NCBI GenBank assembly: GCA_030680835.1
Contig: JAUXUD010000015.1
Coordinates: 1-64,000, forward strand
Source: Bacteroidota bacterium
GTDB taxonomy: Bacteria > Bacteroidota > Bacteroidia > UKL13-3
Reading direction: 5' to 3'
Length of the DNA stretch: 64,000 bases
Part shown: positions 45,254-64,000 of the stretch, piece by piece
Layout: the number at the start of each line of letters is the position of its first letter
How positions within the stretch are numbered: the first letter of the stretch is position 1
Position numbers and translations under genes: made by a program
Notes under the pieces: model-generated
What the model was told of the DNA's origin: nothing
The model's database searches: none
Seen by the model: the letters and a program-made list of their open reading frames with translations, nothing else

Positions 45254-46003
45254 TTATTTCACAATTCCGTCTTCCAGCAGGATCGCATATACATATCCGG
45301 CTCCGAAATCCTTGTTTAAAACAACGGTTCCTTCGCAGGTAATGATGTCTCCGATTTTTACTTCATGAGATGAAGTAATGGTCAGGTCAAAGCTTCCTTT
45401 ATAATCAGTACCATCCTGAATATGTATCCAATTTCTGTCCATAATTTCAGGGCTATATTTGGCTACCTTTCCATTAACAGTTACTTTTTTACCTGCATAC
45501 TTTTCTTTATTCGCAAACAGGTCGGCAATTGAAATGATTCCTTTATCGGGTTCAATTTTTACAGCAATTTTTTCTGTAGTAATTGCAGCACTTCCGGCAT
45601 GGGGCTGGTTATCCTGCAATGCTTGTGGGTTGCCTTGCTGCACAGGTTGCGGATTTCTGTGTTTAATATCACCGCTTACTTCTTTTGAAGGAGGGTCAAT
45701 ACTTACCTTTTCCACAAAATATACAACTGGAAAAGTTCTTCCCAATTCCTTACTCACAAAATTTTTCATTTCCATTTCATTTACATAATAATAGGTCTCA
45801 CCTATTTTAACTTCAGTAAGGGGGAATGCAAGCCATTTTTCAGTGCCATTTTCATCTACGCGCAAATAGGTATACATGCTGGTATTAATTTTTTCAATTG
45901 CAATTACCTTATGCACATTGGGATCAGTAGTTGCTGCATTGTTACTTTGCTGACAACCAAATGTCATGATTGTTAAGCCGATAATAAAAAGTATTGTTCT
46001 CAT
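45254..46003 (-). CDS. Lipoprotein with OB-fold domain
   Basis: 249 aa from the ATG at 46003, which puts the lipobox MTFGCQQ right after the signal peptide. The ATG at 46075 would add 24 basic residues before it. The C-terminal OB-fold (about 160-245) reads SIADLFANKEKYAGKKVTVN, GKVAKYSPEIMDRNWIHIQD, GDIITCEGTVVLNKDFGAGY. It resembles DUF4920/NirD-like OB domains. The gene is 73 bp from the CcsBA gene on the same strand and may assist haem handling or metal/redox sensing; this is inferred only from position. Confidence 0.72.
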   Translation of the reverse strand: MRTILFIIGLTIMTFGCQQSNNAATTDPNVHKVIAIEKINTSMYTYLRVDENGTEKWLAFPLTEVKIGETYYYVNEMEMKNFVSKELGRTFPVVYFVEKVSIDPPSKEVSGDIKHRNPQPVQQGNPQALQDNQPHAGSAAITTEKIAVKIEPDKGIISIADLFANKEKYAGKKVTVNGKVAKYSPEIMDRNWIHIQDGTDYKGSFDLTITSSHEVKIGDIITCEGTVVLNKDFGAGYVYAILLEDGIVK

Positions 46004-46076
46004 TTTGATTTTGTTGATTATGTGTAAAATAAATTTTTTTTGTTTTGTATGATCCCTGCTTTTAAATTGCTTCAAA

Positions 46077-49000
46077 TTATTCAGTCGATGCTTCTAACAT
46101 ACTTGCTTCTTTTTTTCTCAGGTATCGGTCTTTAAGTCCGGCGCCAATAATCAGGGCAATTAATGACAAAATTAATATCCAGCCCCAGATTGGAAACATG
46201 GGAGTATCTCCGGTACCGTAACTATGCATTCCTTTCGAAAAATAATAATTCACCCCAATAAATGTCATCATTACACTACCAAAACCAACAACTGAACCCA
46301 CGGTGAAAAAATAATCTCCGCGCAATTTATCGACAAGCCTTAAATGAACCACGATTGTATACACAATGGTTATAATCAATGCCCATGTTTCTTTCGCATC
46401 CCAGCCCCAATACCGCCCCCAGGATTCGTTTGCCCATACCCCTCCCAAAAAGGTTCCGATGGTTGCTAAAAAAAGTCCAATGGTAATATTCATTTCATTT
46501 ATGTTCGATAACTCTTTTATTAGTAAACCAAATCGGGTGGTATTATTCAGGTTTCTGAAAACGTACAGACTGAGGATAAAAATTCCGAGGATAAATGCCA
46601 ATCCTAAGAATCCGTAACTTATGGTTAGGGTAGCCACATGAATGATTAACCAGTATGATTTTAAAACAGGTTGCAAATTTGTAATCTGGGGATCATAACT
46701 GCTGTGACTGGCTGTCATTAATGCAAAAAAAGCCAGCAATGCAGTAGCAGCCAAAGGTATTTTAGAGTATCTGGCAAAACTGAATCCTGCCAGAATTCCT
46801 GCCCATCCTACAAATAATAAAACTTCATAACCATTGCTCCATGGAGCATGACCTGAAAGATACCAACGGAGTCCCAAACCAAATGTATGATACAAGAATG
46901 CAGCAACAAGTATAAAGCGGAAGAATTTCAGTGAAGCTGAAATGAAATGATTTCTTTTTTCGATAAAATTTTCAACATAAGCCAGGATAAGTAAAACCAC
47001 TGCCAGTATCCCATATATATTTCTCAGTGCAGTAAAAATTCCGGCTTTGTTATAAAATATTTCAAATTTCACCTGATTTTGTGAAGGGATTAAATCGGCT
47101 ATTGCACTGTTGCGCTGTATTTCCTCTATATAACCCAGAATCCTGTTGGCCCTTGAAAAATCGCCATCAGCTGTGGCTGTATAAGCTGCGTTGAGGTAGG
47201 ATCCCATAAAATTATTATAATTCAGCTGGGGTATTCTAAGATCTTTTAATACATTCATATTATCTTCAATAAGTACCTGTGCCTGCGGGTCTATCCAACT
47301 GATCCAAACCTTGCTATCGGGAACGGGCTCAGGAAAAATCCTGAGCAGGGAACCCTGGGTTAGCATGATAAATATTTCGAGGCGCTCACTTACTTTAATA
47401 ATTTCTTTATCAAATGGGTTTTGTTCCTGCGGTTTTTTTCTAAAAGCAATTTCTGAAAATTCCTTTAACTTAAAATTCTGATCTTTATCTGCCAGGTCAT
47501 GGTATGAAGCGTATTTACCTTCAATACCCAGCTTATCGCTTACTGACTTTTCACGTACGTAAATTATTTTTTGGTTTTTCCAGAACACAGGATCCAGGGT
47601 TATGTCAATAAATACCTGCATGGCATCCATTTCGCCTTTCTCTGCATATTGGAATTTATCTTTTCTCGAAATTTTATGTAATACATCATACGCAAGTGTA
47701 TGAACCGGTTCAGAGCGTCCGTCAAAGGTTTGAACAATGAGCTGTCCCAATTTCTCTGCATGCTCTTTACTTACGGGTTTGCGAATCACTTCCTGTGAAC
47801 TCACCAAACTACTTAAGCCTAAAATGAAAAATAAGGTTAATGCTCCATTCATACGCATCTTTTTTATTTCACGGATATTTCTGCTCAGTATCTGGAATCT
47901 GGAATTTCTGTTAAACAGGGTAAGAACAAATCCAAGACTCATCAGGAAATATCCCAGGTAAGTTATCCAGGTTCCCCAAAAGTCGTGATTCACAGATAAA
48001 ATTGTTCCTTTTTCATCACTGTCGTAAGATGACTGAAAAAACCTGAACCCATCATAATCGAGTATATGGTTCATAAATATCCTGAAATTTTGTACGATAC
48101 CTGCTCTTGAATCCCTAATGGTAACCTCGCTGGCATATGATGATGGGTTACTGGAGCCCGGGTATCTTTCAAGAATAAAATCATTGAGAAAAAGAGAAAA
48201 GGGCAATTTAATTTCCTGTTCACCATAACCCATTAGCAAGGTGATTCCTTCAATATTTGCATTTTGCATCTCGGCATTTCCATCGGCACCTATAATTAAA
48301 GGTACTTCATAGGATTTGTTTTTAAAATTTACATCCGCAATCAACGCAGATAATGCATTTTGAGCAGGGGCTCCTTCAACCAGTTGCTGCTTTGCTTTTT
48401 TGTATCCGTTATGAAAAATGAATTTAAAAGAATTATCCGGCGAACTGAACTGAATATTAGAACTCATTTCAAATGATGAGTCTGCCGGTATCACTTTTTC
48501 AGCCATATCGGGAATTGAAACCGTATTTAATGCAAATGATGCCTGAACAAAATATTTACCCTCTTTTTCAAAAAAATGGATATCCGCCTTTTCCTTTAAA
48601 TTATTAAATGTCAGTTTATAACTGCATACACCTGAGATTTCCTTATCTTTAATAAAAACATCTGATTCACTGCCATGATCCAAAACGTTCAGTTTAATGA
48701 CATCAACACCTCCTTCAACATTTTCAACATAAGTCATGCCCGGGTTCATTAAATAATTTTTATAGTTAATTTTCAGATCTCCATCCTCTTTGGTATCAAT
48801 CGACTTTTTAAATTTAATATCTGATGAATGATTTAAGTTTAGGGGGATATCATAACGCATTTCGCTTCCTTTATCCAGTGCAAGTATTTTTAAAACTTTT
48901 TGCTGGGTAACAATAATATTCGACGACTGACCCTCCCGGATATGCATCATTCCTTCATAACCAAAATACCGGGTAACCCCTGCACCTATTATAATTACAA

Positions 49001-49256
49001 TAAAGGCAGAATGAAACAAAAATCCTGCAAATTTCTTTTTCGACAATAAATTATATCTGTTAATATTCCCTATAAAATTTATAGCAAGTAGTACCATTAT
49101 CAATTCGAACCATAATGTACCATAAATAAAACGATACGCAGTAGGTGTATCAAACTTGTCTTCGATAAACGTAGCTGTGGCCATAGCAACTGCAAAAACA
49201 AGCAACAATATTAAAGTTGCTTTGGCGGAGTAAATCAGGTTTAGAATACTTTTCAT
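46077..49256 (-). CDS. ccsBA: Fused cytochrome c maturation protein CcsBA (System II)
   Basis: 1059 aa. The N-terminal ResB half begins with LIYSAKATLILLLVFAVAMA and more helices (FAGFLFHSAFIVIIIGAGVT), with a large periplasmic loop. The C-terminal CcsA half (about 760-1059) contains GLGLRWYLSGHAPWSNGYEV (haem-binding His), IIHVATLTISYGFLGLAF and WGRYWGWDAKETWAL near 945 (WWD motif). It exports haem and ligates it to CxxCH apocytochromes. ResB/CcsA fusion and size (about 1000 aa) are normal for Bacteroidota. Its placement beside several cytochrome genes indicates dedicated maturation of these products. Confidence 0.93.
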   Translation of the reverse strand: MKSILNLIYSAKATLILLLVFAVAMATATFIEDKFDTPTAYRFIYGTLWFELIMVLLAINFIGNINRYNLLSKKKFAGFLFHSAFIVIIIGAGVTRYFGYEGMMHIREGQSSNIIVTQQKVLKILALDKGSEMRYDIPLNLNHSSDIKFKKSIDTKEDGDLKINYKNYLMNPGMTYVENVEGGVDVIKLNVLDHGSESDVFIKDKEISGVCSYKLTFNNLKEKADIHFFEKEGKYFVQASFALNTVSIPDMAEKVIPADSSFEMSSNIQFSSPDNSFKFIFHNGYKKAKQQLVEGAPAQNALSALIADVNFKNKSYEVPLIIGADGNAEMQNANIEGITLLMGYGEQEIKLPFSLFLNDFILERYPGSSNPSSYASEVTIRDSRAGIVQNFRIFMNHILDYDGFRFFQSSYDSDEKGTILSVNHDFWGTWITYLGYFLMSLGFVLTLFNRNSRFQILSRNIREIKKMRMNGALTLFFILGLSSLVSSQEVIRKPVSKEHAEKLGQLIVQTFDGRSEPVHTLAYDVLHKISRKDKFQYAEKGEMDAMQVFIDITLDPVFWKNQKIIYVREKSVSDKLGIEGKYASYHDLADKDQNFKLKEFSEIAFRKKPQEQNPFDKEIIKVSERLEIFIMLTQGSLLRIFPEPVPDSKVWISWIDPQAQVLIEDNMNVLKDLRIPQLNYNNFMGSYLNAAYTATADGDFSRANRILGYIEEIQRNSAIADLIPSQNQVKFEIFYNKAGIFTALRNIYGILAVVLLILAYVENFIEKRNHFISASLKFFRFILVAAFLYHTFGLGLRWYLSGHAPWSNGYEVLLFVGWAGILAGFSFARYSKIPLAATALLAFFALMTASHSSYDPQITNLQPVLKSYWLIIHVATLTISYGFLGLAFILGIFILSLYVFRNLNNTTRFGLLIKELSNINEMNITIGLFLATIGTFLGGVWANESWGRYWGWDAKETWALIITIVYTIVVHLRLVDKLRGDYFFTVGSVVGFGSVMMTFIGVNYYFSKGMHSYGTGDTPMFPIWGWILILSLIALIIGAGLKDRYLRKKEASMLEASTE

Positions 49257-49500: not shown

Positions 49501-50388
49501 TTAATAGAACAGTATTTTTTGAACGCTATTTAAATTCTCATTGTTTACTCTGATGAAATAAATACCCGGTTTAACTTTCCCTGATAAATCAAAGCTTAAA
49601 TTTTGTTCACCTGCATTTAGATTTTCATTCAATAAAGTAATTACTTGTTTGCCATCAATAGAATACAGCGTAACGCTTGTTTTAACTGAGGCGCTATTAA
49701 TAAAATTAATATTAATTCTATCGTTGGCAGGATTTGGAAAAACAGTAACAGCTTTCGGCATAGAAATTTCTGAACCACCTACGGATGAACCTTCAGTAAT
49801 TACGTATGCGTTCAGATAGGTAGTATCATTCAACGAAGTAGTGTCGTCATTGGATGTAAGGGAACTGAAATAAAAGGTAACGGATCCCGTTCCTTTTGCG
49901 GGTGATCTCCATTTATACTCATACTCTTTTTCTCCGCCTGTAGGGGTACCCACTCTATGGTTGATATAATATCTGCCAGAAGCACTGTGAAAGAAAACTT
50001 TGGTCTCACTGGTATCATCCGGAGTTATGGTTCCAACCATTTTATTGGAATCATTTTTAAGCACGGTTGAAGAAAAACCAACAGAATAATTACTTTTAAA
50101 TTTGAATTTTATTTTATAATCTGTATCCGGCAGGTATGACTTTTGGCCGGTACCAAAAGTAAAGATTCTTTTTATACTGTCGTTTGTTACCGGGGTAACA
50201 TCGGTATGGCATTGCGAACAGTCTTTGCGCGTGGTAACACCAGGTCCGGGAACATCCCAGGCCCTGTTTGTGAGTGTATAATTGATTAGCTTGGTAAAAG
50301 CATCGCCGGAAATTAAAATTGCTGCAATTACTAAAGGCAGCACATACATTAGTTTACTTTTTTTCATCGTTTTTTTATTAATTGTCAT
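49501..50388 (-). CDS. Monohaem T9SS-sorted surface protein
   Basis: 295 aa. Signal peptide MKKSKLMYVLPLVIAAILIS (this ATG is at 50367; the in-frame ATG at 50388 adds seven residues). TTRKDCSQCHTDVTP near 50-60 contains a CxxCH haem site. A reelin-like/choice-of-anchor beta sandwich follows (YKIKFKFKSNYSVGFSSTVL; YKWRSPAKGTGSVTFYFSS). The end VFPNPANDRININFIN and KPGIYFIRVNNENLNSVQKI are a T9SS type A domain. A haem protein on the cell surface; possibly a terminal element of the electron chain encoded around it. Confidence 0.85.
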   Translation of the reverse strand: MTINKKTMKKSKLMYVLPLVIAAILISGDAFTKLINYTLTNRAWDVPGPGVTTRKDCSQCHTDVTPVTNDSIKRIFTFGTGQKSYLPDTDYKIKFKFKSNYSVGFSSTVLKNDSNKMVGTITPDDTSETKVFFHSASGRYYINHRVGTPTGGEKEYEYKWRSPAKGTGSVTFYFSSLTSNDDTTSLNDTTYLNAYVITEGSSVGGSEISMPKAVTVFPNPANDRININFINSASVKTSVTLYSIDGKQVITLLNENLNAGEQNLSFDLSGKVKPGIYFIRVNNENLNSVQKILFY

Positions 50389-50439: not shown

Positions 50440-52257
50440 CTATTGGATTGGATTGGCTTTCATATAAGCAATTGCATTCGTTAATAATGCATTTGTATAT
50501 TTGGGATTATGAATACCGCCACTGGATTCTCTAACGCAGGCCTGGAAAATCATGTAACAGGCAAATTGGCCATTGGTCATATTTGGCCATTTGTAAAAAC
50601 CAGCACCCGGACTTGCGTTTGTGGCTTTAAATTTTCCTGTTTTATTTTCGGTTGCATCATAAATGTCAGGATATCCGGTATAATGTTTGGTACTCCATTT
50701 ATACCAAAGATTTCCTTCTTCTTTTTCTTCATTAAATGGAATTGTATCCACATTCATCAGATACATACCATTAACTTTCAGTAATTCTCCCAATGAATCC
50801 AGTTTTGCTTTATGATTTGCTCTTGTTGCAAGTAAAAAGCTTTGTGATGCACTCATGTTTCTGAATACTGAAGTACCGGATGTTTGATCATGACAATTTA
50901 CCACGTTACAACCTTTGTAGCTTCTGTTTGCGCTGAAAGTATGACTGCCGGTAGAATAGATTTGTATTTCACCTGTTGAAACATCGGAACCTGTAGTTGG
51001 AGTTGCCATATGACACATTACACAGGATGCCTCTGAATTATGTGCGGAGTTTTGGTAAGGGGTACTGCCTGCTATTTCATTGGGTCCGAATCCCACACCC
51101 AGGAAAATATTACCAGGCCAGCCGTAGTGACCACCTGTTCTCCAGCCCATACTTAATTTATTTCCACCTGCTGCAGTTGATTTTGTACTGTCCCAGATTA
51201 ACTGTGACGGGTTAACCAATAAACTGTCCAAAACATTATTACCTATTCCTGCAGTTGTATTATATGTTAAAGGACGTGCCTGATGGCAGGATACACAAGT
51301 GTGACTTTTTTTATCCTGATCAATTTTCCCCCATTTGGCATTCCATGGACTTGCCCATAAAACAATGGCAACAGAATCTCTGTAATTACTAGCCTGACTG
51401 GTTCTTAGTGCCATGGAATCAGCTACTGCTCCGCTATGACAGGTAAAGCAGGATATTTTACCCGGTGAGGCAGGCAAAGCCGAAGAGGCCGCAGGAGACG
51501 CACTGAATGAATATGTATATTTACCTCCAGCGAACGTATATGTAGGTACTGCGTTATTGTCCATTCTGTTATCGAAACCTTCATTAGAGTGGCAATATGC
51601 ACAGCTTGCATTCTGACCTGCATATAAGTTATGATTGCGTTTAGCATGCACCGAATACTGATAAGAATCTTTATACCTGTCCCGTTTTTGTGCAAATGAT
51701 CCTTCATAAGACGGTCCGTTAATATCATGATTATGGCATTGATTACAAGTGGCAACACCTGAAGGACCCTGAGGTCCCATTGGGCCCACTGCACCTGCAG
51801 GACCAGCAGGACCTGTTGGACCGGCAGGACCAGGAGTTGAGCTGCCGGATGTGGCAGAATACAGAGAATAAGGAACACTTAACAATTGGGAGGTATTGGA
51901 AATTGTGTAATTGGTTCCTCCAGCAGGGTCGGTTTCAGTTTTAATAAAATACGGTCCTGAAGCCCAGTTAATGGTTGTAATATTACCTGTTACAACAGTT
52001 CCGCCGCCTATTTCAACAGTGGCCAATCCATTTGCATTGGTAGTAGGAGTTTGGGTTTCTGCATAAATTACGGTTCCTGTTGCTGAACCTTGTAAAATAC
52101 TAACCTTCATTCCGATTGCTGTATTTACCACAAGGGCAAAACTGCTGTTTCGCACAACTGCCTGATAACTCATTTTATGCGGCGATTGGGCCGATAAAAA
52201 GTTAGAGGCAAATAGCATAATCGCTATAATACTGAGTGTTTGTTTAAAGTTTTTCAT
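50440..52257 (-). CDS. Six-haem cytochrome with collagen-like segment
   Basis: 605 aa. Signal peptide TLSIIAIMLFASNFLSAQSP. An N-terminal Bacteroidota repeat domain (SYQAVVRNSSFALVVNTAIG; IISN-type end SQLLSVPYSLYSAT) precedes collagen-like triplets (GPAGPTGPAGPAGAVGPMGP) at about 146-172. Then come haem sites CNQCH, CAYCH, CFTCH, CVSCH, CVMCH and one spaced variant CNVVNCH (CX4CH). It lacks a T9SS tail. Probably a secreted or surface haem conductor. A close paralogue is at 52946; N-terminal halves nearly identical, haem halves diverged. Confidence 0.88.
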   Translation of the reverse strand: MKNFKQTLSIIAIMLFASNFLSAQSPHKMSYQAVVRNSSFALVVNTAIGMKVSILQGSATGTVIYAETQTPTTNANGLATVEIGGGTVVTGNITTINWASGPYFIKTETDPAGGTNYTISNTSQLLSVPYSLYSATSGSSTPGPAGPTGPAGPAGAVGPMGPQGPSGVATCNQCHNHDINGPSYEGSFAQKRDRYKDSYQYSVHAKRNHNLYAGQNASCAYCHSNEGFDNRMDNNAVPTYTFAGGKYTYSFSASPAASSALPASPGKISCFTCHSGAVADSMALRTSQASNYRDSVAIVLWASPWNAKWGKIDQDKKSHTCVSCHQARPLTYNTTAGIGNNVLDSLLVNPSQLIWDSTKSTAAGGNKLSMGWRTGGHYGWPGNIFLGVGFGPNEIAGSTPYQNSAHNSEASCVMCHMATPTTGSDVSTGEIQIYSTGSHTFSANRSYKGCNVVNCHDQTSGTSVFRNMSASQSFLLATRANHKAKLDSLGELLKVNGMYLMNVDTIPFNEEKEEGNLWYKWSTKHYTGYPDIYDATENKTGKFKATNASPGAGFYKWPNMTNGQFACYMIFQACVRESSGGIHNPKYTNALLTNAIAYMKANPIQ

Positions 52258-52945: not shown

Positions 52946-54712
52946 TTATGGTATTGGATGGGCTCTCAAATACCAGATTGCATTTCGAAGTAATGCGTTT
53001 GTGTATTTTGTATTATGGATACCGCCACTATATTCCTTTATAGCAACAGAAAACGCCTGCATTGCTGCAAATTGTCCATTGGTCAATGTTGGCCATTTAT
53101 ACATGCCGGCAGCCGGGTTTGAATTATTCACAACAAACTGTCCCTGTGCGGTACCAATATTTATTCCACCGTCAAAATGAAGTGTGGTAAACTTATACCA
53201 AAGGTTATTGCGTGTTATTCCATCAGCAGCTAATGAAGTATCAATTATCATCATGTATTTTCCTTTTGACATCAATAATCCGGCTAAGGTATCCAGATTT
53301 GCTTTTTGATTGTTCTTGGCAGTTGTTACTTTGGAAGAGGTAGCTGTAAGTGGTGACGAACCGTGGCAGTCAATGGTATTACAACCTCTGTAATTATTTA
53401 CCGCATTAAATGTGTGACCTCCGGCCGGTACTTCATTTGTTACATTTGGAGGAGCCATATGACAATTCTGGCATGAAGCTTCGGCGGTATGTGCCGAGTT
53501 TTGGTAGGCAACAGGAGCACCCGGAATTTCAATCGGACCATAACCTTTACCTGCTAATACGGCACCAACCCATCCATAGTGGCCAATTGATCTTGAAGTA
53601 AGTGTAACTTTATTGCCAGTTGAAGCTGTTTTGGTACTGTCATAAAAGATTGAATCCAGTTTGGTTGCCAAATCAGGATAATCAATTGAAGAACCGTTTC
53701 CGGAAGTTGTATTCTGGGTAATTGGTCTTGGTTGGTGACAACGTACGCACAAATTGCTCTTGCTGTTATCCTGTGTAAGATTTATATATTTTACTTTACC
53801 TGGCATTGCATAAAAAAGCATTTTAACCGAATCGGTAGTAACTAAGGCCATAGAATCTGCGGGGTTGCCTTTATGGCAAGTGAAGCATGATATATGTGTA
53901 GGTAAACCGTTCATAGCAGACGATGCTGAAGCAGGAGCTGAAAAGGAGAACGCGTAAGGGCCCGGTGCTGTTCCTGTGTATGTAGGTTGAAGATTGGTTG
54001 CAATTCTGCTTGTGAAACCCTCATTGGAATGGCAAGGTGCACATGATGCGTTTGTTCCTTCACCCATTGCCAGTTCTTTACCTTCACCATGTTTTGAAAA
54101 TTCATAAGCATAAGAGGCCTGATCGCGCTTTTCTGCAAAAGAGCCGGCATATCCGCTGCTTGAACCTTTATCATGTTTATGGCATTGCTGGCAATTGGCA
54201 ACACCTGAAGGACCCTGAGGTCCCATTGGGCCAACTGCACCTGCAGCACCTGCAGGGCCGGCAGGACCTGTTGGACCGGCTGGACCAGGAGTTGAGCTGC
54301 CGGATGTGGCAGAATACAGAGAATAAGGAACACTTAACAATTGGGAGGTATTGGAAATTGTGTAATTGGTTCCTCCAGCAGGGTCGGTTTCAGTTTTAAT
54401 AAAATACGGTCCTGAAGCCCAATTGATGGTTGTAATATTTCCGCTTACCACAGTACCGCCGCCTATTTCGATAGTGGCCAATCCATTTGCATTGGTAGTA
54501 GGAGTTTGGGTTTCTGCATAAACAACGGTTCCTGTTGCTGAACCTTGTAAAATACTAACTTTCATTCCAATTGCCGTATTTACCACAAGGGCAAAACTGC
54601 TGTTTCGTACAACTGCCTGATAACTCATTTTATGCGGCGATTGAGCCGATAAAAAGTTAGTGGCGAATAGCATGATCGCTATAAAACTGAGTGTTTGTTT
54701 AAAGTTTTTCAT
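52946..54712 (-). CDS. Six-haem cytochrome with collagen-like segment, paralogue
   Basis: 588 aa. Same plan as the 50440 protein: signal peptide, N-terminal domain almost residue-for-residue the same (SSFALVVNTAIGMKVSILQG), collagen-like GPAGPTGPAGPAGAAGAVGP, then haem sites CQQCH, CAPCH, CFTCH, CVRCH, CQNCH and the spaced CNTIDCH (CX4CH). The haem halves are related but clearly diverged. No T9SS tail. It is 3 bp from its own small T9SS partner gene (54716). Probably a tandem duplicate with different redox or binding properties. Confidence 0.88.
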   Translation of the reverse strand: MKNFKQTLSFIAIMLFATNFLSAQSPHKMSYQAVVRNSSFALVVNTAIGMKVSILQGSATGTVVYAETQTPTTNANGLATIEIGGGTVVSGNITTINWASGPYFIKTETDPAGGTNYTISNTSQLLSVPYSLYSATSGSSTPGPAGPTGPAGPAGAAGAVGPMGPQGPSGVANCQQCHKHDKGSSSGYAGSFAEKRDQASYAYEFSKHGEGKELAMGEGTNASCAPCHSNEGFTSRIATNLQPTYTGTAPGPYAFSFSAPASASSAMNGLPTHISCFTCHKGNPADSMALVTTDSVKMLFYAMPGKVKYINLTQDNSKSNLCVRCHQPRPITQNTTSGNGSSIDYPDLATKLDSIFYDSTKTASTGNKVTLTSRSIGHYGWVGAVLAGKGYGPIEIPGAPVAYQNSAHTAEASCQNCHMAPPNVTNEVPAGGHTFNAVNNYRGCNTIDCHGSSPLTATSSKVTTAKNNQKANLDTLAGLLMSKGKYMMIIDTSLAADGITRNNLWYKFTTLHFDGGINIGTAQGQFVVNNSNPAAGMYKWPTLTNGQFAAMQAFSVAIKEYSGGIHNTKYTNALLRNAIWYLRAHPIP

Positions 54713-54715
54713 TTC

Positions 54716-55207
54716 TTAATAGGATTTTATAATTTTAAAAGTTTTGATTTCCTGATTTCCTTCATATACCCTGAGAAAATAATGTGCAGGTGCCAAATGC
54801 GCTGCTTCAATTTGGGTGTCAACTGTTTCGATATTGTTTTGTGAAACCAGTTTCCCGTTTGCATCATAAAGTGCATAGCTCATGTGCTTCCATTTGTTAC
54901 TTTCAACTTTCAGCGTAAAGCTGTTTACCGCAGGATTTGGGAATACTGAAGCCGATAGATTAATTCCGGTTTCTTTCTCACCGATACCGGTAACAACTGA
55001 AATCTCGTAAGGCTGCTGCAAACCCTGAATGAGGTTGCGGGTAGCAGACGAAGGAGACGCATAAAAAATCTGACCCATGCTGAAGCTGACGCTACCGCCG
55101 GTTCCGCTGGCATTTCCGCCAGCAGCAACATTACCCCGCTGTGCGAAAAGTATTGTTGTCCCTAATCCAAGGAAACAACAACATAAAGTAAAAATCTTTT
55201 TTTTCAT
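54716..55207 (-). CDS. Small T9SS-sorted protein, copy 2
   Basis: 163 aa, nearly identical to the 52261 protein. Differences are few (e.g. signal start MKKKIFTLCCC versus MKKAMITLCCC; a Lys-His near the end of the central part). Signal peptide, Gly/Ser stretch and T9SS type A tail are the same. Together with the adjacent six-haem gene it forms the second unit of the tandem duplication. Confidence 0.85.
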   Translation of the reverse strand: MKKKIFTLCCCFLGLGTTILFAQRGNVAAGGNASGTGGSVSFSMGQIFYASPSSATRNLIQGLQQPYEISVVTGIGEKETGINLSASVFPNPAVNSFTLKVESNKWKHMSYALYDANGKLVSQNNIETVDTQIEAAHLAPAHYFLRVYEGNQEIKTFKIIKSY

Positions 55208-55423: not shown

Positions 55424-56443
55424 TTATTCCACAATGATTTTTGTGCTCAGATTATTTGTATCGGTATAAACTTTTAACAAATAAATTCCTTTAGCAAAAC
55501 CTTCAAGGTTTAACTGAATATTTGTATTTTCAGTATGTGTTTCCAGCATTAATTTTCCTGATAAATCAAACAGCTGAATAATTTTGTTACCTGATAATTT
55601 ATAAAATTCTAATGTTAAAATCCCGAAGGATGGGTTTGGATAAACTGCATACGATTCATTGTTGTCACTTAAATAATTCAATCCTGTAGTATTCCGGTTC
55701 TGAATGATGTAAACATTTTTAGTAACCGTACCGGCACTTGCGGTTATCAGGGCATTCCTTTCAGTTCCTGTATTAAATGCTGAAGTGATTGCAAAACTTC
55801 CATTGCCCGAACCCGAAATCGGATTCACCGTTGCCCATGTTTGATTGCTTACAACTGTCCAGCTTCGGTTACTGCTTACAGTTATACTTGAAACATTTCC
55901 GGCAAAGGGCGAAAAAATGGTATCAATGTTGAGCAGCAAACTATCGGGTACTACAACACCCGTTGCTGTAAAACTATCCGCTTGCAGCAAACTCCATTGA
56001 TTGAGAGAATCCGCAATCCGAATATAAATTTTATGCTGACCTAAACTTAAACCGGTAAGGGAGGCGATAAACGTTTGATTGATGTTGTCAGCGGGATTCA
56101 TCAAAATCGAAGTCCCCTTTCCAACTCCGGGATCTGTATCAAAAAAATATTCAGCTTTATTGAGGTTTGGCAAGCCTGAAAAATCGCTGTTATAGATGGG
56201 TGCACTTTGCAAATGACTCCAATGGTTCAGTGAATCTTTTACGCGCACATAAAATACATGAAATCCTTTACTGACCGTTGAAAGTGGAATTGATAGTGCA
56301 ATATCTGTGGCGGGTGTAAAACTGATTGCTGTTCCGTTTCCTTTTCCGGGATCTGTATCAAGGAAATATTCAGCTACGGTAATATTTTGGGCTTTCAATG
56401 CAAACTGCATTAAAAGAAACAAACAAACGATTGTATGTTTCAT
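55424..56443 (-). CDS. BACON-domain T9SS-sorted surface protein
   Basis: 339 aa. Signal peptide MKHTIVCLFLLMQFALKAQ. Two N-terminal repeats (ITVAEYFLDTDPGKGNGTAI; NKAEYFFDTDPGVGKGTSIL), each ending in a WS-type strand. A BACON domain follows (SSNRSWTVVSNQTWATVNPI, SGSGNGSFAITSAF). The C-terminus (YAVYPNPSFGILTLEFYKLS; GKLMLETHTE; GIYLLKVYTDTN) is a T9SS type A domain. Probably a polysaccharide or surface-binding protein. It is co-directional with the beta-helix gene 1 bp upstream (same operon). Confidence 0.85.
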   Translation of the reverse strand: MKHTIVCLFLLMQFALKAQNITVAEYFLDTDPGKGNGTAISFTPATDIALSIPLSTVSKGFHVFYVRVKDSLNHWSHLQSAPIYNSDFSGLPNLNKAEYFFDTDPGVGKGTSILMNPADNINQTFIASLTGLSLGQHKIYIRIADSLNQWSLLQADSFTATGVVVPDSLLLNIDTIFSPFAGNVSSITVSSNRSWTVVSNQTWATVNPISGSGNGSFAITSAFNTGTERNALITASAGTVTKNVYIIQNRNTTGLNYLSDNNESYAVYPNPSFGILTLEFYKLSGNKIIQLFDLSGKLMLETHTENTNIQLNLEGFAKGIYLLKVYTDTNNLSTKIIVE

Positions 56444-57783: not shown

Positions 57784-58626
57784 ATGTCGAAATTAATACA
57801 CGCTATTTACATTTATAGCATGGCTCTTATGGTAATCGCAATAACTATTTTTATTGGATTATATGGTTATGCGTATTATCAGATTCCGGTTCAGGAAAGA
57901 TTTTACCATCCGCACTATGATTGGTTCAAACCATCTGGTATTTTCGGACATGGATTGGGTATTATTGGAACCCTTATGATTTTATTTGGAGTTATGATAT
58001 ATATCGCCCGAAAAAAGTATGGCTTTATGGAAAAATATCTGCGCCTGAAATATTTACTTGAATTTCATATTTTTCTTTGTTCCCTCGGTCCGGTTTTAAT
58101 TTTATTTCATACCAGTTTTAAATTTGGGGGAATTGTTTCCATTGCATTCTGGAGTATGGTAGCAGTGGTGTTAAGCGGCATCATAGGCAGATTTATATAT
58201 ATCCAGATACCGAGAAGCATTGAAGGAAGAGAACTGTCACTGAATGAAGTAAAGGAAACTCAAAAATCTATTATAGGCAAGCTAAAAGATTTTGAACAAA
58301 TAGGAATCGATATTGAACAGCTTATCGGTTTAAATTCACAGATAGGCGGTATGGGGCCTGTTGCTTATCTGAAACGAACACTCGCCTTAATGGATCTAAA
58401 GAAAAAACTTGAACAAAAAAATATTTCGAAAAAGCAATCCCGGCAATTTGTAGAATTTGTAAAACAGGAATGGATTATAGCGGGCAGAATAAACCGGCTG
58501 AACCAGATGCAGAAACTGTTTAAATACTGGCATGTGGCACACAAACCTTTTGCATTGATTATGCTGGTGATTGTTGTGATTCATGTTTTAATTACGGTGG
58601 CTTTTGGCTACAAATGGATTTGGTAA
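57784..58626 (+). CDS. Membrane b-type cytochrome-like protein
   Basis: 280 aa with about five membrane helices (YSMALMVIAITIFIGLYGYA; GIIGTLMILFGVMIYIARKK; FHIFLCSLGPVLILFHTSFK; IAFWSMVAVVLSGIIGRFIY; FALIMLVIVVIHVLITVAFG). Paired His in EFHIFLCSLGPVLILFHTSF and KYWHVAHKPFALIM/VIHVL could ligate two haems b. A soluble loop (190-230) faces one side. I infer a quinone- or oxidoreductase-linked membrane electron carrier. It overlaps the next gene by 13 bp and starts the electron-transport operon. Confidence 0.72.
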   Translation: MSKLIHAIYIYSMALMVIAITIFIGLYGYAYYQIPVQERFYHPHYDWFKPSGIFGHGLGIIGTLMILFGVMIYIARKKYGFMEKYLRLKYLLEFHIFLCSLGPVLILFHTSFKFGGIVSIAFWSMVAVVLSGIIGRFIYIQIPRSIEGRELSLNEVKETQKSIIGKLKDFEQIGIDIEQLIGLNSQIGGMGPVAYLKRTLALMDLKKKLEQKNISKKQSRQFVEFVKQEWIIAGRINRLNQMQKLFKYWHVAHKPFALIMLVIVVIHVLITVAFGYKWIW

Positions 58627-59960
58627 TGGGTTTAACAATTGAAGAAATAAGTATCTACTTTATTACTGCTCTTTTTTGTATTGGAGTGGTTTTATTTTAC
58701 CTGAAATCAGGAAAAAAAGAATCCAGAAGAATTAAACAAAAAATTGAACTCGCCAAACAGGAGGGTCGGTTTGAACCGGTATCCCTGCATCCGTATATTG
58801 ATTTAAATATATGTATCGGGAGCGGAGCCTGCATTAAAGCCTGCCCAGAAAAAGATATTATTGGTATTGTTGATGGCAAAGCCATGGTAGTAAATGCCAC
58901 AAGCTGCATTGGCCACGGGGCTTGTTTTCATGCCTGTCCGGTTGAGGCCATTTCACTCAGAATCGGTACAGAACAAAGGGGTGTAGAATTGCCTCATGTG
59001 GATCAAAATTATGAAACCAATGTTCGGGGTATTTTCATTGCCGGGGAACTCGGAGGTATGGGCTTGATTAAAAACAGTGTGGAACAGGGCAGGCAAGCTG
59101 TAGAAAATATTGCCAAAAGTAGTAAAGTAAAAAAAGAAGGTGTTTTGGATTTGGTTATTATTGGAGCAGGGCCTGCAGGAATATCGGGCGCACTAACCGC
59201 TAAAAAGCTAGGTTTATCTTTTACTGCTTTAGAACAGGATACTTTAGGAGGAACTGTTTTTACATTTCCGAGAACAAAAATTGTAATGACCAATCCCATG
59301 GACTTGCCATTGTACGGAAAAGTAAAACTCTTTGACACTTCCAAACAGGAATTGCTGAATATCTGGAAAGATGCATTGTCAAAAAACAAGATAGAAATCT
59401 GTGAAAATGCAAAAGTTGAAAAAATAATACCCCATGAAGATTTTACTTTTAGCGTGATAACTCTGGATGGAAAAGCGTATACCTGTAACCATGTACTGGT
59501 GGCAATCGGGCGTCGCGGGTCTCCCAGAAAGCTGAATGTTGAAGGAGAAGATTTACCAAATGTGGCTTATCGATTGTTGGAACCGGAGCTAATTTCGGGC
59601 AAAAAAATAATGGTAGTAGGTGGCGGTGATTCTGCTGTAGAATCGGCACTATTATTGATGGATCAAAATGAAGTGAGTCTTTCCTATCGCAAAGATCAGT
59701 TTGCACGACTGAAACCTAAAAATACAGAAAGAATCATGGATGCGCAAAGGGAAAAGAAGGTAAATATCCTTTTCGGTTCAGAGCTTGTTTCAATCAGCAT
59801 GCAAGAAGTTCAATTAAAATTTGATACAAATGGTACAGTAACAAACATACCGAATGATCTGGTTTATATTTTTGCAGGCGGCGAACTGCCTTCTGCATTC
59901 CTAAAAAATGCAGGTATCGAAATAAGCAAAAGATTCGGTCAAATTGTAAAGAAACATTGA
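58614..59960 (+). CDS. Ferredoxin-FAD/NAD(P)-type oxidoreductase
   Basis: 448 aa. An N-terminal membrane helix (ISIYFITALFCIGVVLFYLK), then two Fe-S-like motifs: CIGSGACIKACP (67-78) and CIGHGACFHACP (98-109). In each, the usual second Cys is replaced by Ser70 or His101. Next is VIIGAGPAGISGALTAKKLG near 170 (FAD) and MVVGGGDSAVESALLL near 340 (NAD(P)), as in thioredoxin-reductase-type enzymes. It probably moves electrons between NAD(P)H and the membrane/haem chain. It overlaps both neighbours (13 bp and 4 bp). Confidence 0.85.
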   Translation: MDLVMGLTIEEISIYFITALFCIGVVLFYLKSGKKESRRIKQKIELAKQEGRFEPVSLHPYIDLNICIGSGACIKACPEKDIIGIVDGKAMVVNATSCIGHGACFHACPVEAISLRIGTEQRGVELPHVDQNYETNVRGIFIAGELGGMGLIKNSVEQGRQAVENIAKSSKVKKEGVLDLVIIGAGPAGISGALTAKKLGLSFTALEQDTLGGTVFTFPRTKIVMTNPMDLPLYGKVKLFDTSKQELLNIWKDALSKNKIEICENAKVEKIIPHEDFTFSVITLDGKAYTCNHVLVAIGRRGSPRKLNVEGEDLPNVAYRLLEPELISGKKIMVVGGGDSAVESALLLMDQNEVSLSYRKDQFARLKPKNTERIMDAQREKKVNILFGSELVSISMQEVQLKFDTNGTVTNIPNDLVYIFAGGELPSAFLKNAGIEISKRFGQIVKKH

Positions 59961-61573
59961 AGTCTTCTTTATACATATCAACCCTCTTCATTACATTCCT
60001 GATAATAGGTATAAGTGGAAACGTATACGCCCAGTTATCTCCCGGTGAATTATCGGCTAAACATGCCGAATTTGAAGGACTTTCAAATTGCACCCAATGT
60101 CATAGTATTGGAAGTGGTGTACCTGATACCAAATGCCTGGATTGTCACAAAGAAATCAAGCTGCTGAAAACACAAAACAGAGGCTATCATGCATCTTCAG
60201 AAGCTAAAAATAAAAAGTGTGTGGAGTGTCATAGTGATCATCATGGCAGAAACTTTGATATGGCAAAATTTAATGAAAAAACATTTAATCATTCACTTGC
60301 AGGTTATAAACTTGAAGGAAGTCATACAAAAGTTAATTGCAAAGATTGCCACAAATCCGAATTTATTAAAGATGCAAAACTTTCAAAACGTAGCAGAACT
60401 TTTCTGGGTTTAAGTCAGAAATGTATCATCTGCCATGTTGACTATCATCAGGGTACATTGAAGGAAAATTGTGCTGCTTGTCATAACCTGATTAAATTCA
60501 GACCTGCACCCAAATTTAATCACGATGCCGCAAGTTTCAAACTGATTGGGGCTCATAAAAAAATAAGCTGTATTGCGTGCCATAAAGTAATCAAACAAAA
60601 CGGAAAAGATTTCCAGCAATTCACCGAATTAAAACATGCAAACTGTATCGATTGCCATCGGGATATTCATGATGGAAAATTTGGAATCAACTGTATGAAA
60701 TGCCATAATGAAAATTCATTCCGGGAACTGAAACAAACTTCCGGTTTCAACCATAATCAAACGCGTTTTCCACTCACCGGCATGCATACAGATTTACAAT
60801 GCAGGCAATGCCATAAATCCAATTCATATACTAAGACCATCAAATTTAATTCATGTACTGATTGTCATAGTGACTATCATAAAGGGGAATTCAAACGCAA
60901 GGGCAAAATAATGGATTGCAAAGAATGTCATTTGCTCACACAAAAATTTAATATTACCAGCTATACTGCCGGGCAGCACAATTCAGGAAAATTTCCTTTG
61001 CAAGGAGCTCATTTGGCAACCCCCTGCATTTCGTGCCATAAATATAAGGGGGGCTGGAAATTTGCCGGCATCGCAACAATGTGTACCGATTGCCATACCA
61101 ACCCGCACGATAACCAAATGAGCAAAACATATTATGAAGATTCAAAATGCATGAACTGCCATAATGAAAACAACTGGAATGAAATCAATTTTGATCATAA
61201 AAAAACCAAATATGAATTGGAAGGAAAACATAAACAGGCCACATGCAGAACTTGTCATTATCCCATAAGCAAACAAGAAAATAAAGTTACACAGAAATTT
61301 AATTCCCTCACGAATGATTGTTCAATTTGCCATCAGAATGTACACGGAAACCAATTTGTAATTAATAATAAAACCGATTGCAAACGATGTCATGGCAAAT
61401 CAACAGCATGGGAAGCCAATCTTTTTGACCACAATAAAACCCGGTTCCCGCTTGATGGAAAACACCAGCAGCTACCTTGTAAATCCTGTCATAAAAATAA
61501 AGCGGATACCGGAAATTCAGTTTTAATTGAGTATAAATTAAATAAATTATCATGTATAGACTGTCATTCCTGA
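59957..61573 (+). CDS. 20-haem c-type cytochrome
   Basis: 538 aa, starting at TTG (59957), overlapping the previous stop by 4 bp (TTGA). Signal peptide LFITFLIIGISGNVYAQLSP. I count 20 CxxCH motifs. Six repeats of the plan FxHxxxxFxLxGxH followed by CxxCHK recur (e.g. FNHDAASFKLIGAHKKISC). Seven sites read CxxCHxxxH (e.g. CTDCHSDYHK). It is predicted periplasmic or outer-surface and to form a long haem wire. It overlaps the next cytochrome by 22 bp. CcsBA at 46077 would mature it. Confidence 0.9.
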   Translation: MKSSLYISTLFITFLIIGISGNVYAQLSPGELSAKHAEFEGLSNCTQCHSIGSGVPDTKCLDCHKEIKLLKTQNRGYHASSEAKNKKCVECHSDHHGRNFDMAKFNEKTFNHSLAGYKLEGSHTKVNCKDCHKSEFIKDAKLSKRSRTFLGLSQKCIICHVDYHQGTLKENCAACHNLIKFRPAPKFNHDAASFKLIGAHKKISCIACHKVIKQNGKDFQQFTELKHANCIDCHRDIHDGKFGINCMKCHNENSFRELKQTSGFNHNQTRFPLTGMHTDLQCRQCHKSNSYTKTIKFNSCTDCHSDYHKGEFKRKGKIMDCKECHLLTQKFNITSYTAGQHNSGKFPLQGAHLATPCISCHKYKGGWKFAGIATMCTDCHTNPHDNQMSKTYYEDSKCMNCHNENNWNEINFDHKKTKYELEGKHKQATCRTCHYPISKQENKVTQKFNSLTNDCSICHQNVHGNQFVINNKTDCKRCHGKSTAWEANLFDHNKTRFPLDGKHQQLPCKSCHKNKADTGNSVLIEYKLNKLSCIDCHS

Positions 61574-62580
61574 TTATCATCTTTATTCTTGCCGGCAGTT
61601 TAACCGGGCAGGAACCTAAGACTCATGGTCCTGATTTTAAGATGGACTGTAAAGCATGTCACAATACCAGTGGTTGGAAAGTTGACTTATCGAAAATCAA
61701 CTTTAGCCATGATAACACAAAATTTAAATTAAGGGATCAGCACGCAGTTGCTGACTGCAAAAAATGTCACAAATCATTAATTTTTACCGGTGTAAAATCA
61801 GCGTGTAACTCTTGTCACAATGATATGCATAGCATGTCGGTAGGGAATGATTGCATACGCTGTCATACAACCCAAAACTGGCTGGTAAATAACATTCCGC
61901 AACTGCACGAACAAAACGGATTTCCTTTGGCCGGTGCACATACTGTATTATCGTGTATCGATTGCCATAAATCGGAAACCAATCAGCGCTGGGATCGGAT
62001 TGGAAATGATTGTGCATCGTGTCATTTAAAAAATTACAATGCTGCAACAAGTCCAAATCACAAAGCCGGGGGGTATTCTACCCATTGCACGGATTGTCAT
62101 GAACCCATTTCTATGACCTGGGGAGGTGGAAATTTTCACTTTTTTTTCTCCCTAACGGAAGGCCACAATATCAAGGACTGTACAAAATGCCACGACCCCG
62201 GCAATTTTAAGGCTGTAAGTTCCGAATGTGCTTCATGCCATTTAAAGGATTACAACAATACCACAAATCCGAAGCATGCCAGCTCTGGGTTTGGTACCAA
62301 TTGTATAATCTGTCATACAACCCGGCCCGGATGGAAACCTGCTCAGATGGCCAATCACGATCCGGTTTTCTTTCCTATTTATTCAGGCAAACACGCGGGT
62401 AAGTGGGGGGCTTGTACCAGTTGCCACCTGAACCCAAATGATTATAAACAGTATAGCTGTTTAAATTGTCATGAGCATAGCAATCCAACTGAATTAGCCA
62501 AAGATCATAAAGACGTTGCAAATTATATTTTCCAGAGCACTGCCTGTTACAATTGTCATCCGAAAGGCAGTGAAAAATAA
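61552..62580 (+). CDS. 13-haem c-type cytochrome
   Basis: 342 aa. Signal peptide RLSFLIIIFILAGSLTGQEP. Thirteen CxxCH motifs (CKACH, CKKCH, CNSCH, CIRCH, CIDCH, CASCH, CTDCH, CTKCH, CASCH, CIICH, CTSCH, CLNCH, CYNCH). The same FxHxxxxFxL.xxH - CxxCHK unit as in the 20-haem protein occurs at the N-terminus (FSHDNTKFKLRDQHAVADC). ATG at 61552 lies within the end of the previous gene. It precedes the barrel gene by 13 bp. It likely continues the haem chain toward the outer membrane. Confidence 0.88.
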   Translation: MYRLSFLIIIFILAGSLTGQEPKTHGPDFKMDCKACHNTSGWKVDLSKINFSHDNTKFKLRDQHAVADCKKCHKSLIFTGVKSACNSCHNDMHSMSVGNDCIRCHTTQNWLVNNIPQLHEQNGFPLAGAHTVLSCIDCHKSETNQRWDRIGNDCASCHLKNYNAATSPNHKAGGYSTHCTDCHEPISMTWGGGNFHFFFSLTEGHNIKDCTKCHDPGNFKAVSSECASCHLKDYNNTTNPKHASSGFGTNCIICHTTRPGWKPAQMANHDPVFFPIYSGKHAGKWGACTSCHLNPNDYKQYSCLNCHEHSNPTELAKDHKDVANYIFQSTACYNCHPKGSEK

Positions 62581-62593
62581 ACTGAATGGACCA

Positions 62594-64000
62594 ATGACCC
62601 GGATACTATTTTTGTTTCTAACTCTATTTTGCGGTCTGCAAATTTATGCGCAAGCTCCATTTCCTGTTGAGGGGAAAGTTTCATTTGTTACCCAGAGTTC
62701 GGTTTATGTGAAGTTCGGCAATACCGAACCGATAAAAGCCGGAGATACCCTGTATATAAAACAATCCGGAACAGCTCATTATTTGCCTTGCTTAAAAGTT
62801 AATGCCAGGTCATCAACTACATGTGTAGCAAACAATTTTTCAGGAATAAGCTTTCAGGCCGGACAAATTGTTTATTCATTTCAATTGGTTCAACCCGAAA
62901 AAATAAAACAGAAAACAGTGCCTGAAATAGGCAAACAAGCAGCATTCACGCCTGATACCCCTGAAAAAATCGCGTTAAAAAAAAATACACCCCAAATACA
63001 CGGCAGGATAGGTATTTCAAATTACAGTAATTTTTCAGCATCAGACAATAAACAGGGGCACCGGCAGGTGGGTTCACTATATATGTATGGCAGCAATTTA
63101 GGCCATTCCCGGGTTTCAGCTGAAACCAACATTATTTATTCACGGGTTCATCCTGCAGCACCTTCTGAATATACAAGTACTCAGTCTATGCTCAGGATTT
63201 ATGGACTCTCAGTAAAATATGATTTCAAAAAAGGCGGTGGAATCATTGCGGGTAGAAGATTCAATGACCATCTTTCGTCAATGGGTGCCATTGATGGATT
63301 GCAAATTGAAAAATCGTACCGGAATTTATTTGGAGGGATCGTAGTTGGTTACCGGCCTGATTTGTTTTCCTATGCACTCAACAGCGACTTGTTTCAATAT
63401 GGATTTTATTTTGGACACAAATTGAATAAAGGGGGTTACAGTGCAACTACTGCTTTAGGTTATATTGAACAAACCAATAAATTCAAGACCGACCGGAAAT
63501 ATGCTGCATTTCAGCATTCCGGCAGCTTCAAAAAAATCAGTTTGTTTGCTTCATCAGAACTGGAGTTGTATAATCCAACTTTAAATAAATTACGCCTCAG
63601 CAGTCTGTATGTTTCGGCCAACTATGAATTAGGTAAAAAGTCGGCATTGATGCTTTCGTATGATTCGCGTAAAATGATTGTATTTTATGAATCTTATTTT
63701 TATGATTTAAGTAGTTATTTGAACAACGACATTGCAATGAATGGACTTCGCCTCAGATGGAGTTTACAATTATGCAAAAATATCTATACGAGTATAGGTG
63801 CTGCAATCCGGTATCAGTCGAACGGTGCCAATAAGTCTGATAATTATAATGTCTCGGTATCGTGGAATAATATCCCCTTAATTCATGGTAATATTTCACT
63901 TTCCGGCAACTCAAATTTATCCGGATCCATTGAATCGCACATGGGTGCCATTAATTATTCAAGAGATTTTTTTTCGCAAAAGATTCAAGTGAGTATATTT
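62594..64000 (+). CDS. Outer-membrane beta-barrel (porin-like), partial
   Basis: The frame from ATG 62594 stays open for 469 codons to the window end, so the gene is incomplete. Signal peptide ILFLFLTLFCGLQIYAQAPF; a small N-terminal domain to about residue 130; then repeated amphipathic strands typical of a large barrel (LGHSRVSAETNIIYSRV; MLRIYGLSVKYDFKKGGGII; FGGIVVGYRPDLFSYALNSD; FQYGFYFGHKLNKGGYSATT). Position last in the cytochrome operon suggests an MtrB-like role (a sheath for a cytochrome wire) or a pore. Sequence does not resemble MtrB to me; this is an analogy. Confidence 0.7.
   Translation, partial: MTRILFLFLTLFCGLQIYAQAPFPVEGKVSFVTQSSVYVKFGNTEPIKAGDTLYIKQSGTAHYLPCLKVNARSSTTCVANNFSGISFQAGQIVYSFQLVQPEKIKQKTVPEIGKQAAFTPDTPEKIALKKNTPQIHGRIGISNYSNFSASDNKQGHRQVGSLYMYGSNLGHSRVSAETNIIYSRVHPAAPSEYTSTQSMLRIYGLSVKYDFKKGGGIIAGRRFNDHLSSMGAIDGLQIEKSYRNLFGGIVVGYRPDLFSYALNSDLFQYGFYFGHKLNKGGYSATTALGYIEQTNKFKTDRKYAAFQHSGSFKKISLFASSELELYNPTLNKLRLSSLYVSANYELGKKSALMLSYDSRKMIVFYESYFYDLSSYLNNDIAMNGLRLRWSLQLCKNIYTSIGAAIRYQSNGANKSDNYNVSVSWNNIPLIHGNISLSGNSNLSGSIESHMGAINYSRDFFSQKIQVSIF

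Follow-up and report, generated by a model that had tools for sequence, protein, structure and literature searches.

A putative trans-envelope electron conduit of Bacteroidota with a multihaem cytochrome of variable length

A five-gene set that is found widely in the phylum Bacteroidota probably encodes an electron conduit running from the inside of the cell through both membranes, and one of its cytochromes occurs in many lengths that differ by whole three-haem units. The set (genes A–E) was analyzed in a stretch of 64,000 nucleotides, herein called the window, that comprises positions 1 to 64,000 of contig JAUXUD010000015.1 (assembly GCA_030680835.1, Bacteroidota bacterium). Its features are compiled in the table.

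Table. Coordinates of the gene set and of associated features within the window.
Feature	Position	Strand	Length	Description
Gene A	57784–58626	+	280 aa	Putative inner-membrane b-type cytochrome; five hydrophobic segments (grouped from calculated windows)
Gene B	58614–59960	+	448 aa	Putative membrane-anchored Fe-S/FAD oxidoreductase; N-terminal hydrophobic segment, two ferredoxin-like motifs, apparently circularly permuted thioredoxin-reductase/YpdA fold
Gene C	59957–61573	+	538 aa	20-haem c-type cytochrome; TTG start, signal-peptide-like start
Gene D	61552–62580	+	342 aa	13-haem c-type cytochrome; fixed N-cap, one three-haem unit (31-16-25 spacing), fixed C-cap
C/D overlap	61552–61573	+	22 bp	Start codon of D lies out of frame across the Cys codon of the last CxxCH of C
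Three-haem unit of D	62086–62304 (approximate)	+		Haem 7 (residue 179) to haem 10 (residue 251)
Gene E	62594–64000	+	529 aa (full gene)	Predicted outer-membrane β-barrel with small N-terminal β domain; cut by the window edge, ends at contig position 64183
Gene F	45254–46075	−		Homologue of the lipoprotein that directly follows E in Bacteroidia relatives (E 4e-48, matched at 45260–45952)
ResB-CcsA fusion	46077–49256	−	1059 aa	System II cytochrome c biogenesis

The preliminary description of the locus, namely five forward genes with overlaps of 13, 4, and 22 bp, a 13-bp gap before the barrel gene, and 33 CxxCH sites in two adjacent genes, is confirmed. The 40 cysteines of C and the 26 cysteines of D are exactly two per motif. 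A chance accumulation is excluded, since the whole window read in six frames contains 50 CxxCH motifs in 127,996 codons, 33 of which are located in these two genes. The overlap between C and D is conserved as well, amounting to 22 bp in 39 and to 25 bp in 15 of 59 C–D pairs.

The five genes are co-conserved. A scan confirmed 455 relatives, of which 80 loci were read, nearly all titled as Bacteroidota; absence from other phyla is thus not shown. Among the testable loci, B is present in 73 of 75, C in 64 of 65, D in 48 of 48, and E in 36 of 38. Two loci show no B, one has C at a distance of about 5 kb, and in the two loci lacking E a second D runs off the sequence. In a sample of the phylum, 33 of 395 genomes contain E at an E-value up to 1e-6. 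Besides the window's own, 30 of these were inspected and 28 were testable, of which 26 carry A–E together, 15 in the order A–B–C–D–E and 11 in the order A–C–D–E–B. Of the two exceptions, one has no A that was found and the other only A and a fragment of E. Within the class, the operon is patchy: A was found over its full length in 4 of 295 genomes (own included), with weaker or partial matches in 10 more, and E in 3 of 295, with one additional marginal match containing internal stops.

Gene A exhibits six histidines (6, 95, 109, 250, 253, and 267) that are invariant in 81 of 81 sequences. Herein, H95/H109 and H253/H267 form two pairs with a spacing of 14, as in a two-haem cytochrome b, from which the binding of haem b is inferred. 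A has no NCBIfam family and only a subthreshold Pfam match (E 0.07), and its profile found nothing useful among solved structures. Gene B contains the FAD and NAD(P) dinucleotide motifs of YpdA/thioredoxin reductase flavoproteins, its best match being TIGR04018 with 146 bits (cut-off 339.9). Residues 179 to 441 match YpdA 1 to 265, and the preceding residues 125 to 169 match YpdA 266 to 312 (E 0.0011) and the end of Pyr_redox_2 (E 0.014). Based on these weak but consistent matches of the moved segment, the C-terminal FAD segment appears to be placed in front of the core. In contrast to the reductases that use it, B contains no CxxC pair, and it is fused to a membrane anchor and a two-cluster ferredoxin domain. 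Six cluster cysteines and H101 are conserved in 73 of 73 sequences and S70 in 71 of 73. The ferredoxin motifs lack the usual second cysteine in both clusters (Ser70, His101), so that cluster type and potential are uncertain.

In both cytochromes, conserved further histidines equal the haems in number: 20 in C (34 sequences) and 13, all invariant, in D (27 sequences, the window D plus 26 of 52 complete D genes). This leaves no obvious open catalytic haem and is consistent with wires rather than reductases, although the assignment is based on sequence only. The alternative raised in the preliminary description, a haem-based reductase for a periplasmic substrate with an unrelated barrel, is thereby weakened. 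This alternative, or that of a redox-buffer pathway of A–D, could draw on the missing family assignment of E and on weak matches of C and D to periplasmic cytochrome families such as DmsE and HmcA. However, E follows D in 36 of 38 testable loci and lies with D in the phylum loci. In addition, the distances of E follow those of B (r 0.80) and C (r 0.68) beyond 500 permutations in 39 loci, though vertical descent alone would also account for this. We consider this alternative very unlikely.

Unforeseen in the preliminary description, D ranges from about 10 to 73 haems in steps of three, whereas its partner C and the barrel stay nearly constant. The haem number equals 1 mod 3 in 51 of 52 complete D genes of the 80 loci and in 29 of 33 of the phylum loci, together 80 of 85. 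Two of these 33 (with 7 and 9 haems) are cut by a contig end; without them, the total is 79 of 83. The other departures are 9 (a second D), 18, and 38 haems in the phylum loci and 39 (a second D) in the 80 loci. Most forms contain 1 to 21 repeats between the N- and C-caps. Two Arenibacter strains possess nearly the same D except for three three-haem units (25 against 16 haems). For C, 20 haems are found in 22 of 28 ORFs of the phylum loci, the remainder having 19 (two), 23, 16, and, for one C split into two ORFs that was still counted as present, 5 and 14. The profile of D weakly matches the dodecahaem built of c7 three-haem repeats (PDB 3ov0, probably GSU1996; E 4.6e-4) and a sixteen-haem cytochrome (PDB 1z1n; E 1.7e-11), with which it shares the three-haem repeat architecture, but D differs from these by its specific caps, its repeat number, and a linked barrel. 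An AlphaFold model of D (pLDDT 48.8, pTM 0.21) was not usable, and no statement on its shape rests on it.

As the window copy of E is truncated, a full-length relative was modeled (pLDDT 86, pTM 0.65), yielding a barrel in which we counted 22 strands, preceded only by a small β domain of about 70 residues. E has no Pfam or NCBIfam hit at E up to 1 and is not a TonB-dependent receptor by sequence. The modeled barrel does superpose on siderophore receptor barrels (Z about 20), which reflects a shared barrel size and not membership. The top Foldseek hits are usher barrels. Together with the variable length of D next to an E that stays near 530 aa, this could be taken to mean that D is an exported haem filament or an electron-storage capacitor, with E being an usher-like export or anchoring pore rather than an insulating sheath. 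Capacitor-like roles have been speculated on for large Saprospiraceae cytochromes (PMC11495043). Since usher, siderophore-receptor, and porin barrels all score similarly, the hits only indicate a large barrel, and this reading appears unlikely.

We favor, with moderate confidence, a trans-envelope conduit, in line with the preliminary description, which had proposed a Bacteroidota conduit with an NAD(P)H/FAD oxidoreductase wired in. Herein, B, anchored in the inner membrane with its FAD/Fe-S domain in the cytoplasm, would oxidize NAD(P)H and pass electrons through its iron–sulphur centres to the b-haems of A. A would carry them across the inner membrane to the periplasmic C, and C would hand them to D, whose conserved caps would dock in and through E, so that electrons reach the outside of the outer membrane. 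The likely sink would be an extracellular oxidant such as Fe(III)/Mn(IV) minerals, humics, or another cell. Topology, electron direction, donor, the passage of D through E, and the sink are inferences. The need for an extracellular sink is not obvious, since the genome also has three COX1-family genes and the named relatives include marine genera that are presumably aerobes. The same parts could also work in the opposite direction, bringing electrons from Fe(II), sulphide, or a partner cell inward, with A–B reducing NAD(P)+ or a cytoplasmic acceptor. Anatomy does not fix direction, the COX1-family oxidases could use incoming electrons, and Mto/Pio conduits appear to run inward. However, NAD(P)+ reduction from high-potential donors would be uphill, no coupling machinery is among the five genes, and the named relatives seem to be mostly heterotrophs, which makes electron uptake unlikely.

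Like the MtrCAB, MtoAB, and PioAB conduits, the set combines a multihaem cytochrome gene with an adjacent gene for a predicted outer-membrane barrel, and the shortest regular forms of D have 10 to 13 haems. However, E does not match MtrB_PioB (PF11854), which is absent from the genome, and no MtrB chain was found in a profile search of PDB sequences at E up to 1. With 22 modeled strands, the barrel is narrower than that of MtrB, which probably has 26 strands. C and D reach 50.5 and 24.1 bits, respectively, against a cut-off of 192.2 for TIGR03508 (DmsE/MtrA). In addition, electrons would be provided by a flavin/Fe-S/b-haem pair, and D is length-variable. The OmbB–OmaB–OmcB and ExtABCD conduits of Geobacter presumably also comprise a barrel and cytochromes in one operon; in the present operon, no extracellular multihaem lipoprotein of the MtrC/OmcB type was seen, and the inner-membrane donor genes are included. 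From the same phylum, large multihaem cytochromes of Saprospiraceae (PMC11495043) and an anode-enriched cluster of six multihaem cytochromes plus a barrel (PMC8258643) are known, but the b-cytochrome/flavoprotein/20-haem/D/barrel set, the step of three, and the conserved order are not described in the sections of these studies consulted. It is possible, though somewhat less likely than not, that the set represents a phylum-wide, NAD(P)H-fed conduit independent of quinol and unrelated to Mtr/Pio, in which evolution adds or removes whole three-haem units between fixed docking caps while the barrel stays constant. Many marine flavobacteria and Saprospiraceae not usually counted as electroactive would then carry an extracellular electron pathway.

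Gene F follows E in 29 of 32 testable loci, although the profile was built from such neighbors, and was found in only 2 of 35 loci searched beyond the 80; hence, it is not a constant part outside Bacteroidia. In the window, it is located about 12 kb upstream of A beside the ResB-CcsA fusion. A tblastn search with the latter protein revealed a homologue downstream of E in 18 of 24 testable loci, placing cytochrome c biogenesis near E in these relatives.

The operon lies on a 72,777-base contig (contig 16) of a 4.30-Mb genome that is 99.84% complete, of which the window covers bases 1-64000. The barrel gene, seen cut off by the window edge in the preliminary description, is completed on this contig and encodes 529 aa. 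The five forward genes, A to E, overlap by 13, 4, and 22 bp and show a 13-bp gap. C contains 20 and D contains 13 CxxCH motifs, and both proteins have exactly two cysteines per motif.

Coordinates of features within and near the operon
Feature	Location	Strand	Description
Gene B	window 58614-59960	+	Fe-S/FAD protein
Gene E	ends at contig position 64183	+	barrel
Homologue of F	window 45254-46075	-	lipoprotein
Two proteins with five CxxCH motifs each	window 50440-52257 and 52946-54712	-	short collagen-like Gly-Pro repeat in each
Proteins with type IX secretion tails	window 49501-50388, 54716-55207, 55424-56443		
Sensor kinase and response regulator pair	L002:7702-9658		downstream of E
Pyridine-nucleotide-disulphide oxidoreductase	L002:9862-11562		with a rhodanese domain

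A has no NCBIfam match and only a subthreshold Pfam match. Its hydrophobic segments can be grouped into five membrane helices, and six histidines are invariant in 81 of 81 sequences. These include two pairs with a spacing of 14 residues (H95/H109 and H253/H267), as expected for two b-haems stacked across the membrane, although haem binding is inferred. B has an N-terminal hydrophobic stretch followed by basic residues, two ferredoxin motifs, and an FAD/NAD(P) core. The core (residues 179-441) matches YpdA positions 1-265, whereas residues 125-169, located in front of it, match YpdA 266-312 (E-value 0.0011) and the end of Pyr_redox_2 (E-value 0.014). The matches of this short segment are weak one by one but agree with each other; hence, B appears to be a circular permutation. 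It contains no CxxC. Six cluster cysteines and His101 are invariant in 73 of 73 sequences. Both ferredoxin motifs lack the usual second cysteine, its place being taken by a serine in the first motif (Ser70, 71 of 73) and by His101 in the second, meaning unusual cluster ligands.

In C, 20 further histidines are conserved in at least 97% of 34 sequences, compared with 20 haems. In D, 13 further histidines are invariant in 27 sequences, compared with 13 haems. This predicts bis-histidine ligation throughout and leaves no obvious open catalytic haem, although the pairing itself was not seen; the two proteins thus resemble wires rather than enzymes. In 54 of 59 C-D pairs, D starts 22 or 25 bp before C ends, with its start codon lying out of frame across the cysteine codon of the last CxxCH of C. 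This suggests coupled translation of the two cytochromes.

The barrel was modeled on a full-length relative from Maribacter sp. isolate Ww89 (locus L093), which is 36% identical to the truncated window copy in the alignment of E. The model (pLDDT 86, pTM 0.65) shows 22 long strands, as counted by eye, after a small N-terminal β-domain. The E of the window has no Pfam or NCBIfam match at E-values up to 1, and the profile has no solved relative. Structure searches returned many large barrels with similar scores, including ushers, siderophore receptors, and porins.

A scan of species genomes with A confirmed 455 relatives, of which the best 80 were retrieved; nearly all of these are titled as Bacteroidota and one only as "bacterium." Named carriers include Maribacter, Arenibacter, Lutibacter, and Yeosuana. 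Among the loci with enough DNA downstream, B follows in 73 of 75, C in 64 of 65, D in 48 of 48, and E in 36 of 38, with a second D running off the end of the retrieved DNA in both E misses. In an even draw of 395 genomes of the phylum, 33 have E at an E-value up to 1e-6, 31 of them being labeled as outside the class of the window. Of the 30 that were retrieved besides the window's own, two end at a contig edge. Of the other 28, 26 carry all five genes, 15 in the order of the window and 11 with B after E; in one of the 26 (locus L153), C is split into two ORFs. Within the class, the operon is patchy, with A over its full length in 4 of 295 genomes and E clearly in 3 of 295. It also seems to decay in some genomes, as illustrated by an isolated E copy with stop codons in its match (locus L163 of genome G515) and by a locus with only A and an E fragment (L173 of genome G405). 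A smaller two-gene relative was found in seven loci (L026, L027, and L029-L033). It comprises a b-cytochrome of about 190 to 215 aa and an 8- to 12-haem cytochrome, in four of them just after a membrane-protein–like ORF of 161-162 aa, without B or E, and is a possible ancestor or cousin of A-C.

In the 80 loci, a lipoprotein, F, follows E in 29 of 32 testable ones. Its homologue in the genome of the window lies about 12 kb upstream of A, beside the ResB-CcsA cytochrome c biogenesis gene. A homologue of that biogenesis gene lies downstream of E in 18 of 24 testable relatives.

The haem number of D varies in steps of three. Complete D genes in the 80 loci carry 13 to 73 haems, and 51 of 52 counts are 1 modulo 3. 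In the loci of the phylum draw, this holds for 29 of 33, with regular minimal forms of 10 haems, which have a shorter N-cap, and a maximum of 61. The total is 80 of 85, or 79 of 83 without two genes that are cut by a contig end. If counts were random, the binomial chance of 80 or more of 85 would be about 3e-32, a value that ignores relatedness. Short-read assembly could miscount repeats but would not by itself keep the count at 1 modulo 3. Arenibacter echinorum and Arenibacter sp. F20364 have nearly the same D except for three units (25 against 16 haems). In one genome, the operon is broken by two contig ends inside haem repeats (loci L024 and L007). Herein, ORFs with 21, 33, and 22 haem sites are seen, the first two being cut by the ends, so that D is very long or duplicated. 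In contrast, C has 20 or 23 haems in 62 of 63 complete genes, with one of 26, and 20 in 22 of 28 ORFs of the phylum loci, and E stays near 530 residues.

The electron chain is taken to run from NAD(P)H via B, A, and C to D in E and on to the outside. It rests on composition, gene order, and conservation, whereas topology, direction, donor, threading, and sink are inferred. The genome contains three COX1-family genes, so the organism probably can respire oxygen as well. The operon of the preliminary description, which proposed a Bacteroidota conduit with an NAD(P)H/FAD oxidoreductase wired in, is real and a better finding than stated there. It is a conserved, sequence-distinct candidate for a functional kind that is already known, with the apparently permuted flavoprotein and the length-variable wire as new traits. 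Saprospiraceae cytochromes with very many haem sites have been reported, with speculation on extracellular transfer or a capacitor role (PMC11495043). Also reported are an uncharacterized Bacteroidetes cluster of six multihaem cytochromes and a barrel on an anode (PMC8258643), as well as Ignavibacteria cytochromes of up to 40 haems and OmbB-like conduits (PMC7399161). Among the passages seen in these and other open-licence papers (PMC11475568, PMC6295460, and PMC12977616), none describes this five-gene set or the step of three, although the set may be listed among the over two thousand multihaem neighborhoods in the supplements of PMC11475568.

In the window, the two proteins with five CxxCH motifs and a collagen-like repeat lie among proteins with type IX secretion tails and are possible extracellular cytochromes beside the conduit. 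In locus L002, a sensor kinase and response regulator pair, identified by reading the translations, lies downstream of E and is followed by the rhodanese-domain oxidoreductase; regulation is possible.
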